Positions 13,199 through 63,665 of a stretch of 64,000 nt of DNA are shown here, piece by piece. This DNA comes from Winogradskyella marina (GTDB lineage: Bacteria; Bacteroidota; Bacteroidia; Flavobacteriales; Flavobacteriaceae): positions 1 through 64,000 of the forward strand of contig NZ_JADOET010000014.1 of the NCBI RefSeq assembly GCF_015645385.1. Reading direction: 5' to 3'. The notes beneath the pieces were generated by a model, which saw nothing but the letters and a program-made list of their open reading frames with translations, was not told the DNA's origin and did no database searches. A program made the position numbers and the translations under genes. Within the stretch, counting starts at the first letter, position 1; every line of letters starts with the position of its first letter.

Positions 13199-13255
13199 TT
13201 TCTGTTATTCCAACTATTCTTCAATACCCTGTGATTTTAGTGTTTTTAAATAGAT

Positions 13256-13271
13256 GCCTGCCTTCGCAGGC
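13256..13271. repeat. Isolated REP-like palindrome
   Basis: GCCTGC, loop CTTC, GCAGGC. The core CCTGCCTTCGCAGG is shared with the inverted repeat pair at 44618-44691, so it is a single degenerate copy of that family. Confidence 0.7.
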
Positions 13272-13320
13272 AGGACAAACCCAAATCTCATGTTAATCTG
13301 TTAATCGAAAATAAAATAAC

Positions 13321-13505
13321 AGCCACATCGTGGCGATATATTAATAACTAACAACTCAAAACGGTAACCTAACACCACATCGTGGCGATATATTAATAAC
13401 CAATAATCCAAAACAGTAACTCAATAGCCACAGCGTGGCGATATATTAATAACTAAAAACCTAACACGGTAACCATAGCTCCAGAGGAGCGACATTAACT
13501 AATAG
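13321..13505. repeat. Tandem array of REP-like hairpins (3 copies plus a variant)
   Basis: Three units with the core GCCACATCGTGGCG or GCCACAGCGTGGCG followed by ATATATTAATAAC begin at 13321, 13373 and 13426 (period 52-53 bp). Spacers share AAAACGGTAAC-like sequence. A fourth unit at 13477 has GCTCCAGAGGAGCG and GACATTAACT. Each core is a 5-bp stem with a 3-base loop (GCCAC...GTGGC, GCTCC...GGAGC). The same stem-plus-ATATATTA design recurs at 54963-55345. Confidence 0.8.
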
Positions 13506-54599: not shown

Positions 54600-54923
54600 A
54601 TGTTTGGAGATATGATGGGAATGATGGGCAAATTGAAAGAGTCTCAAAAAAAAGTTGAAGAAACTAAAGAGCGCTTACATACCGTTTTAATTGACGAAGC
54701 GAGCAATGACGATAAATTAAAAGTAACGATTACAGCTAATAGAACAATTAAATCTATTGCTATTTCTGATGAATTACTACAGGATAAAGACATGCTTGAA
54801 GATTACTTAATACTTACCCTTAACAAAGCGATCGAAAAAGCGACAAGTGTTCACGAAGCAGAAGTTGCCGCTGTAGCAAAAGAAGGCATGCCAAATATTC
54901 CTGGTTTAGACATGTTTAAATAA
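54600..54923 (+). CDS. YbaB/EbfC nucleoid-associated protein
   Basis: A 107-residue protein of the YbaB/EbfC family ('[20 protein letters not shown]', '[20 protein letters not shown]', '[20 protein letters not shown]'). It forms a dimer that binds DNA without strong sequence preference and affects nucleoid structure and gene expression. I start at 54600 because the TAnnTTTG element at 54565 would place the upstream ATG before or at the transcription start. In many bacteria this gene sits with dnaX and recR; here it is alone, divergent from ptrB. Confidence 0.92.
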
Positions 54924-54962
54924 TTTTTTAGTTCATTTTATGAATTAAAAACCAATAGCAAT

Positions 54963-55345
54963 TAAAGCTACAACGTGACAAAACATTAATAATTATAGAA
55001 GTGAAGTTTTGCTTTAGCTCCAGAGGAGCGATATATTATTTGATCTTTTCTTAATATATCACTCCGCTGGAGTTCAAGGCTACTATCTATAACTTCGTTA
55101 CTAACATAAAACTCCTCTAGAGTTTAAATCATCGAATCACATAGATATTAATTTACTTAAAACAATTTAGGTATTAAAGCTACAGCGTAGCAACATATTA
55201 ATAATTACAAAAAAATTCTGGGTTTTGTTTAGCTCCAGAGGAGTGGTACAATGTTAAAATTTATGCTATAAGAAATATCACTCCGCTGGAGTTCAACGCA
55301 CCATTAGTTATCCTTGTTATTAATATAAAACTCCTAAGTTTTTAT
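54963..55345. repeat. Cluster of REP-like hairpins, some in inverted pairs
   Basis: Hairpin cores: GCTAC/GTGAC at 54967-54979 (degenerate), GCTCC AGA GGAGC at 55017-55029 followed by ATATATTA, its inverted mate ACTCC GCT GGAGT at 55061-55073, GCTAC AGC GTAGC at 55179-55191, GCTCC AGA GGAGT at 55232-55244 and ACTCC GCT GGAGT at 55280-55292, plus an imperfect AAACTC...GAGTTT near 55109. The design (5-bp stem, 3-base loop, AT-rich tail ATATATTAATAA) matches the array at 13321-13505. About 380 bp of non-coding sequence is filled with such units. Confidence 0.8.
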
Positions 55346-55412: not shown

Positions 55413-56429
55413 TTAAATAGACTTTAATTCGCCTAGAAGTTTTTCATGCATTTGCTCCGTATAATCCAAATGCGTTACCATTCGTAATTTGTTACTTCCC
55501 ATACCAATAATATGAATATTCTTTTCTTTTAATTTACTTAGGAATTGTGCTTCATCCACATCATCATTCAACTCAAAAATTACGATGTTGGTTTCAATAG
55601 GTTCTACTTTTTTAATTGTCGATAACTTAGTTAACACCTCCCCTATTTCTTTCGCTCGTTTATGATCTTCAGCTAAGCGCTCTATATTATGATCTAATGC
55701 ATATAATCCGGCAGCAGCCAAATAACCTACTTGTCGCATATTACCACCAAAAAGCTTTCTTAAGCTCAAGGATTTTTTCATAATTTCCTCATCTCCAATT
55801 AACACGGAACCAACAGGACAACCCAAACCTTTGCTTAAACACACTGAAATGGTATCGAAAACGCCACCATATTGTAAAGTGGTTTCATTTTTAGCCACCA
55901 AAGCATTCCATAATCGTGCTCCATCTAAATGAAATCCTAAAGTATTGGTTTTACAAATCTTATTTATGTTTTCAATTTCTTGAAAATCCCAACACGCTCC
56001 ACCTCCTTTATTTGTTGTGTTTTCAACTTCAACCAAACTCGCTTGACTGTAATAATAGTCTGTAGGATTTATAGACGCTTTTACTTGTTCTGCTGTAAAC
56101 ATGCCACGATCGCCATCTATCAATTTACATGACGCTCCACTATGAAAAGCCACACCTCCAACTTCATAGTTATAGATATGTGCATACTTATCGCAAATCA
56201 CCTGTTCACCTGGATTGGTGTGTAATTTTATAGCGACTTGATTTGCCATACTTCCCGAAGGGAAAAACAACGCCTTTTGTTTACCAAACATTTTTGCTAA
56301 TCGCTCTTCCAATTGATTAACGGTTGGGTCTTCTCTAAAAACATCGTCACCAACGTGTGCAGATTGCATAGCATCTAACATGCCTTTTGATGGTTTGGTA
56401 ACGGTATCGCTTCTTAAGTCTATTATCAT
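55413..56429 (-). CDS. ltaE: Low-specificity L-threonine aldolase
   Basis: A 338-residue fold-type I PLP enzyme that cleaves threonine (and allo-threonine) to glycine and acetaldehyde. 'MIIDLRSDTVTKPSKGMLDA' opens it; Lys200 in 'SVCLSKGLGCPVGS' carries PLP; 'EVENTTNKGGG' and 'GFHLDGARLWNA' are conserved. The cytoplasmic enzyme supplies glycine besides GlyA. The REP-like cluster lies 3' of it. Confidence 0.92.
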   Translation of the reverse strand: MIIDLRSDTVTKPSKGMLDAMQSAHVGDDVFREDPTVNQLEERLAKMFGKQKALFFPSGSMANQVAIKLHTNPGEQVICDKYAHIYNYEVGGVAFHSGASCKLIDGDRGMFTAEQVKASINPTDYYYSQASLVEVENTTNKGGGACWDFQEIENINKICKTNTLGFHLDGARLWNALVAKNETTLQYGGVFDTISVCLSKGLGCPVGSVLIGDEEIMKKSLSLRKLFGGNMRQVGYLAAAGLYALDHNIERLAEDHKRAKEIGEVLTKLSTIKKVEPIETNIVIFELNDDVDEAQFLSKLKEKNIHIIGMGSNKLRMVTHLDYTEQMHEKLLGELKSI

Positions 56430-63629: not shown

Positions 63630-63665
63630 AAAAATGTTGCTAATCACTTAGCAACATTTTTTTTA
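63630..63665. terminator. Terminator after the TonB-dependent receptor
   Basis: ATGTTGCTAA (63634-63643), loop TCAC, TTAGCAACAT (63648-63657), flanked by A and T runs; usable from both sides and shared with the HAD gene. Confidence 0.9.

Follow-up and report, generated by a model that had tools for sequence, protein, structure and literature searches.

We analyzed a stretch of 64,000 nucleotides from Winogradskyella marina, called the window below. In it, a ybaB/ebfC gene and a threonine-aldolase-like gene converge on a cluster of eight REP-like hairpins (positions 54963 to 55345). The features of this locus are listed here. Bit scores of the REPs are those of the covariance model R1, described below, and the REPs of the plus strand, written ">", have a conserved tag to the right of the hairpin on that strand.

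54600..54923, plus strand: ybaB/ebfC gene, left neighbor of the REP cluster (PF02575, 63.4 bits)
54945..55116, no strand: tandem block, first copy, spanning repeats D2 to D1 (repeat comparison)
54967..54992, plus strand: outer REP of copy 1, with a decayed hairpin at 54967-54979 and the tag side at 54980-54992 (R1, 23.3 bits; alignment row A3)
55017..55042, plus strand: inner REP of copy 1, GCTCC-AGA-GGAGC with tag side (R1, 34.3 bits)
55048..55073, minus strand: inner REP of copy 1, inverted mate, ACTCC-GCT-GGAGT on the plus strand (R1, 37.0 bits; inverted pair I1)
55098..55123, minus strand: outer REP of copy 1, inverted, one G-T pair (R1, 26.7 bits)
55157..55335, no strand: second copy of the tandem block (repeat comparison)
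55179..55204, plus strand: outer REP of copy 2, GCTAC-AGC-GTAGC with tag side ending ATATTAATAA (R1, 37.6 bits)
55232..55257, plus strand: inner REP of copy 2, one G-T pair (R1, 25.2 bits)
55267..55292, minus strand: inner REP of copy 2, inverted mate (R1, 29.6 bits)
55317..55339, minus strand: outer REP of copy 2, inverted and decayed, placed by its register with copy 1 (R1, 14.0 bits, E 0.51 in the window)
55413..56429, minus strand: threonine-aldolase-like gene, right neighbor of the cluster, convergent with ybaB (PF01212, 300 bits)

The eight hairpins form two tandem copies of one four-hairpin block, each ordered outer >, inner >, inner <, outer <. Like-oriented neighbors lie 50 to 53 nt apart, the inner inverted mates are separated by 31 and 35 bp, and the blocks are spaced by 212 to 219 bp. 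The two repeat stretches of the tandem (56 and 61 nt) have identities of 75 and 79% and spacings of 212 and 219 bp. Four of the hairpins are perfect, with a 5-bp stem and a 3-nt loop (55017-55029 and 55179-55191 on the plus strand, 55061-55073 and 55280-55292 on the minus strand), and two have one G-T pair (55232-55244, plus; 55111-55123, minus). The hairpin at 54967-54979 (plus) is decayed, as is the weak one within 55317-55339 (minus), which scores no better than a likely chance match at 63639. The first-pass annotation had described at least six stems of one design, with inverted mates about 30 to 35 bp apart and with pairs acting as one larger unit. These stems are all present in a total of eight, the distances agree with those measured, and the larger unit is the set of four hairpins, > > < <, whose tandem repetition goes beyond what had been described.

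The first inverted pair has 27-nt arms that are 85% complementary, with 13 nt between them, and can form one long hairpin of the BIME/REPIN kind. Folded as single-stranded DNA, the 383 bases of the cluster reach -46.7 kcal/mol versus -27.7 (standard deviation, 4.2) in 100 dinucleotide shuffles, none of which folded as well (z = -4.5). A loose hairpin pattern allowing two mismatches is mildly unusual in the window alone, with 12 matches versus 6.4 expected, a number reached by 4 of 100 shuffles.

The exact core of the hairpins, CTCCAGMGGAG, is found 20 times in the 3.98-Mb genome, versus once for the reversed control. One of the 20, on contig C6, has no tag and lies in a reading frame that is open across the whole 2-kb stretch; it was excluded from the family alignment, which contains 30 copies and from which R1 was built. 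In this alignment, 97.9% of the cells are paired and 27 cells are changed on both sides, and at three of the five stem pairs (G-C/A-T, T-A/C-G, and C-G/A-T), double changes have kept the pairing. Stem covariation is 0.548 versus 0.254 in shuffles, and when the partner is shifted by 1 to 3 columns, the paired cells fall to 51.7% or less. Searching the genome with R1 gave 35 matches at an E value of ≤5, of which 34 lie in REP clusters and one is alone (E 3). The 34 copies, scored from 150 of 1,391 first-look candidates, are a lower bound, and 30 of them had built the model. The four new ones are all in known clusters, including the two weakest cluster matches (E 0.28 and 1.35), which are assigned by their position. 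Seven places are occupied: the 55-kb and 13-kb sites of the window, C4:14.4 kb, C4:99.0-99.7 kb together with the start of contig C2, C60, C71, and C78. The end of C4 and the start of C2 have 79 identical bases in common, so one copy was probably counted twice, which leaves at most 33 distinct copies. Four loci were compared with Rfam, and no known RNA family matched at the gathering threshold.

The second site of the window is as follows.

13322..13503, plus strand: array of four REPs in one orientation, 51 to 53 nt apart (R1 matches at 13322, 13374, 13427, and 13478)

The first-pass annotation had taken the 55-kb cluster to be kin to this array, a view to be given up if genome-wide comparison revealed no relation. 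The relation was found: cluster and array are one family, linked by the covariance model and by a common stem, loop, and tag. In the window, R1 detects 11 hairpins of the two clusters at an E value of <0.002; as these 11 had gone into the model together with 19 other copies, their matches follow from its construction, but the stem, loop, and tag are visibly common in the alignment. Directly before the array, at 13250-13275, a separate short inverted repeat resembling TGCCTGCC-TTC-GCAGGCAG was seen by eye.

Pfam Y1_Tnp is found in three genes of the genome. A possible Y1 transposase had been guessed to accompany the REP-like repeats, and one of the three genes, tnpA at C4:98563-99018, indeed adjoins six of the 20 exact cores. 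The array lies on its upstream side, and the REPs are one-sided in the assembled contig, which ends within the array. In W. marina, REPs flanking tnpA recur elsewhere in the genome, as they do in a REPtron; among homologue genomes, such recurrence was checked in a few. Subclass 1.2 motifs are found in the products of this gene and of the gene at C3:90154-90603, which are 49% identical; the C4 protein has the motif NHIH. Both proteins pass the NCBIfam IS200/IS605 model (71 bits; cutoff, 55) and fail the REP_Tyr_transpos (RAYT) model (31.8 bits; cutoff, 80). A structure predicted for a Polaribacter homologue (mean pLDDT, 88.5; 59 sequences, from the 80 named homologues described below) has the TnpA proteins of ISDra2 and IS608 as its closest folds, and the REP-bound transposase 4er8 ranks 30th. 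The C3 gene (locus L030, C3:88500-92500) is bracketed by its own hairpin family, GTCCC-NNNN-GGGAC; by eye, both of its flanks have an outer GTCCC hairpin and an imperfect inner one.

We extended the analysis to homologous genes. Of 120 genomes of the family, 23 gave a match at an E value of ≤0.001, a number that includes weak matches from other Y1 groups. A scan of genome contigs yielded at least 562 relatives, and the best 80 of them, a set biased to close homologues, are referred to as the named homologues. Within 500 bp of these 80 genes, there are 5.4 hairpins (stem of at least 5, loop of 3 to 5) per locus, versus 0.59 in shuffles and 0.79 in a far stretch at 2.0 to 2.5 kb, which is incomplete for 24 of the 80 loci. 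At least two hairpins of one family are found at 71 of 80 loci versus 3 of 80, and at least three at 48 of 80 versus 1 of 80 in the far stretch and none in shuffles.

The tag was studied in 536 hairpins from 90 loci (the 80 named homologues and ten from family genomes), with the orientation learnt from the flanks only. There is one 13-nt tag, which reads GAMATRTTNATAG 3' of the hairpin or, equally, CTATNAATATKTC 5' of the hairpin on the other strand. It holds 5.01 bits of information versus at most 0.75 in 10 shuffles with letters permuted within each flank, and the side opposite the tag holds 0.54 bits over 22 nt. The loops, which were not used for orientation, are still asymmetric, with a purine first in 81 of 88 majority loops. 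No GTAG or GT[AG]G tetranucleotide signal was found at the hairpin foot in the 90 loci and 95 doublets. With the tag profile, which was learnt on the same 90 loci that it describes, at least one tagged hairpin is found within 500 bp at 88 of the 90 subclass 1.2 loci and at least two at 79; the far control, scored with the same profile, has 4 of 56 and 2 of 56, respectively. None of eight other Y1 genes, scored in the same way, has a tagged hairpin within 500 bp, and two IS200 control elements have one hairpin each and no tag. Outside the training set, a tagged hairpin is found in 12 of 17 usable loci (counted without the truncated locus L195), some of these hairpins being single and odd-looking, and L189 and L190 score 2.8 against a threshold of 3. 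Membership in subclass 1.2 was assigned by motifs and not by a published profile; WQ is found in 90, Y...Q..HH in 87, and [DN]H.H in 86 of the 90 loci. Hairpin similarity tracks protein similarity (Spearman coefficient of 0.349 over 85 loci, matched in 0 of 2,000 permutations), a relation that could come from shared descent alone. Both the association of tagged hairpins with subclass 1.2 genes and the tag itself are well supported.

These results bear on the idea that the cluster consists of classical GTAG-type REPs of a class 2 RAYT. Inverted palindrome pairs, a low-copy Y1 gene alongside, and dispersal would all be expected of such a system. However, the hairpin foot is without GTAG, the model scores favor IS200 over RAYT, the enzyme motifs are those of subclass 1.2, and no tagged hairpin lies within 500 bp of the third Y1 gene of W. 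marina, on contig C22. The C4 enzyme is not a classical RAYT and its tag is not GTAG, and we regard this explanation as extremely improbable.

On a deeper branch of the homologues (L192, L193, L195, L054, L058, and L293), several alternating types of flanking hairpins with other tags were seen. The pattern CTCCGTAGGAG was matched in 12 of 13 genomes checked. Among 15 matches that were read, several Chryseobacterium copies proved to be a different palindrome, and dispersal is claimed for Epilithonimonas only, with 29 copies. In Chryseobacterium (L306, L313, L316, and L320-L322), the other palindrome around CTCCGTAGGAG has GAGA/TGTCA flanks and is not tagged like the REPs. Passengers of phages and plasmids were considered and rejected: four phage records all have less than 60% identity, with one partial relative among viral contigs, and among the matches listed from 128 plasmid records, identity above 35% across most of the query is reached in Bernardetia and Persicobacter only.

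The REPs around tnpA have a regular architecture. Like-oriented REPs up to 150 nt apart are spaced by 45 to 54 nt in 125 of 159 cases. Where REPs occur on both sides within 300 bp, the nearest tags point inward in 49 of 53 loci; where they occur upstream only, this holds for 15 of 16 loci, and where they occur downstream only, 8 of 18 are inward and 10 outward. Three of the 90 loci have no REP within 300 bp. By strict hairpins, 13 of 90 loci have a doublet on both sides, and 42 have one on at least one side. We compared the two members of 95 isolated doublets from 55 loci. CT at -13/-12 is found in 88 of the 95 outer REPs and in 14 of the 95 inner REPs; because only the first seven tag positions had served to pick the doublets, this difference was not selected for. 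The foot of the inner REP is most often TGTC (22) or GGTC (15). On a Bernardetia plasmid, one hairpin recurs as a > > < < set upstream of tnpA, with spacings of 51, 56, and 53 nt and one of the four hairpins below the tag threshold. The block at 55 kb has the same inverted double-hairpin layout as the tnpA flanks and thus looks like the bracket minus the gene. Head-to-tail REP arrays with a period of about 50 nt were also seen, both beside and away from tnpA (L130, L142, L052, L135, and Epilithonimonas G190:C30:11749-12368). In L135, a > > < block is repeated about every 217 nt.

IS200/IS605 elements have one hairpin per end, and these are in the same orientation on one strand. A plain element of this type, with left- and right-end hairpins and deletion derivatives, could be suspected at W. 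marina because the protein and its fold are IS200/IS605-like, as in IS608 and ISDra2, the catalytic motifs agree, and the gene is bracketed by hairpins; hairpin recognition is plausible as well. In contrast to such elements, the hairpins here are often double, and those of the two sides are mutually inverted (49 of 53 two-sided loci). Multicopy spread of the gene is not seen either in W. marina, the one genome surveyed for it, which has two tnpA copies of only 49% identity, and the two IS200 controls look different, with their single untagged hairpins. We find a plain IS200/IS605 element highly improbable.

The first-pass annotation had also proposed a comparison of the flanks in related genomes. 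The aldolase gene is found in 58 of 60 genus genomes, and loci from 29 relatives were compared. In 24 same-genus relatives ybaB is adjacent to the aldolase gene, and the REP cluster is found in none of them. By the ends of tblastn matches, from which the junction lengths were taken, the gap is 0 in nine relatives, whose coding ends meet or overlap, 2 to 112 bp in eleven, and 203 bp in one; the remaining three have gaps of 422, 422, and 449 bp, filled by other sequence. Absence from the relatives is also compatible with loss, though the coding ends meet or overlap in 9 of 24. Exact insertion boundaries could not be discerned at the two junctions compared, and neither a target duplication nor a recent copy came to light. 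Since the two blocks have decayed and are 75 to 79% alike, movement could be old or over.

The junction data also concern the view that the hairpins are transcription terminators or RNA-stabilizing structures between convergent genes, with an incidental likeness to transposase flanks. The ybaB and aldolase genes do converge, and a scan gives 2 terminator-like sites versus 0.3 expected. The 3' side, however, is GATATATTA, without a T run, the nine relatives with meeting or overlapping coding ends have no room for a cluster, and hairpins with the long common tag also stand beside tnpA genes and at six further places. A terminator function is very unlikely to explain them.

In five genus genomes, W. 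marina included, a C3-type tnpA lies between a haemoglobin-like and a DUF2520-like gene. In 23 of the other 25 junction loci, the two flanking genes are 45 to 198 bp apart without tnpA, one of these loci having apparent REP remnants; the remaining two have no haemoglobin-like gene in the locus. Subclass-1.2-like genes are found in 8 of the 60 genus genomes. The core CTCCAGMGGAG counts 20 in W. marina (G000), 18 in G125, and at most 3 elsewhere, and the C4-type tnpA is found in G000, G125 (75% identical), and G130 (76%). In G130, a variant core, CCACAGCGTGG, stands beside the C4-type gene. In G125 (L188), this gene has an in-frame stop, yet the 18 exact cores persist, 16 of them in two clusters. 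The sequence GTCCCNNNNGGGAC is found in 10 of the 60 genomes, five with and five without a C3-type gene, and at 12 places in G130; dispersal was checked in a few genomes.

The REPs might instead have spread by gene conversion, slippage, or tandem duplication, with tnpA as a bystander or as a user of the REPs for regulation or landing. The 212- to 219-bp tandem and the 50-nt arrays need duplication only, and the copies are decayed. Such processes fit less well with the seven separate places in the genome, with the bracketing of tnpA, and with the way in which REP abundance follows the tnpA type across the genus. We consider this unlikely, although it deserves some weight.

Considering the anatomy, the kinship, the genome-wide copies, the association of tagged hairpins, the inward bracketing on two sides, and the absence of the cluster from relatives, all of which are observed, we favor, with a probability of about three in four, that the 55-kb cluster is two tandem copies of a nonautonomous BIME/REPIN-like element, the gene-less form of a subclass 1.2 Y1 element. 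Binding, strand, cut site, movement, and the agency of this particular enzyme are what we infer from these arrangements. The ends of the element are double hairpins, in which about 50 nt separate the outer REP from the inner one; the tags point inward and the ends are mutually inverted (> > < <), and hairpins arranged in the same way bracket the tnpA genes of subclass 1.2 Y1 HUH transposases. The enzyme most likely binds the folded hairpins on single-stranded DNA. The tag would position it, and the cut would fall near the conserved CT, 13 to 12 nt 5' of the outer hairpin. A gene-less version of the enzyme's own element may have been copied or moved into the ybaB-aldolase junction, where a later tandem duplication would have produced the second block. 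The CT of the outer REPs may parallel the cutting at CT dinucleotides that the available text of PMC8266576 describes together with guide tetranucleotides at the hairpin foot.

Like the REPs of BIME/REPIN-RAYT systems (TnpAREP, REPtron), those described here are short palindromes that carry an unpaired tag and occur in inverted pairs and arrays, and a Y1 gene of low copy number lies beside REPs of its own type. They differ in three respects: the tag is CTATNAATATKTC rather than GTAG, doublets are frequent and have different tags on their outer and inner members, and the enzyme lies toward IS200 within the family. The proteins resemble TnpAY1 subclass 1.2 in their length of about 150 amino acids, in DH[IV]H, WQ, and Y...Q..HH, and in their occurrence in Bacteroidota. 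In the accessible part of the census by Quentin et al. (2018; PMC6006769), subclass 1.2 is listed with REP "no" and generally without typical IS200 end structures, and its substrate is left open; REPs were searched there by the GT[AG]G motif and manual inspection. Here, in contrast, tagged hairpins are the rule (88 of 90 loci). In the open-license literature, a scope that mostly leaves out subscription papers, we found no paper linking REPs to subclass 1.2.

The portion of PMC3733652 at hand defines GTAG and CGTC tags, reports CGTC repeats without a transposase, and mentions TGTC as a variant for CGTC repeats. Likened by that description, our REPs share inverted dimers with the CGTC-tagged ones, and the inner REPs often have a TGTC foot. 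They differ in having stems of 5 to 9 and loops of 3 to 4 nt, versus stems of 8 to 9 and loops of 4 to 5 nt, a longer tag, and a foot other than CGTC. Subclass 1.2 enzymes might be the transposases of a third superfamily of tagged REPs, with inverted double-hairpin ends in which the outer hairpin would carry the cut site and the inner one the guide, the 55-kb unit being a gene-less mobile form; the TGTC foot may tie in the orphan CGTC-tagged REPs, and the hosts would be Bacteroidota and, if metagenome bins are right, some Ignavibacteria, Verrucomicrobia, and others. We put this joint reading forward tentatively, at somewhat below even odds.

A partnership of hairpins and transposase that is absent according to the available text of the published census (PMC6006769) recurs in most of the related genes examined. 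If this partnership holds, a substrate of defined sequence can be assigned to subclass 1.2, and these systems would stand between IS200/IS605 elements, with which they share an IS200-like enzyme, and domesticated REP systems, with which they share tagged, inverted REPs. The partnership yields a directly testable prediction of the cut site, and it may account for many of the short palindromes in Bacteroidota genomes.
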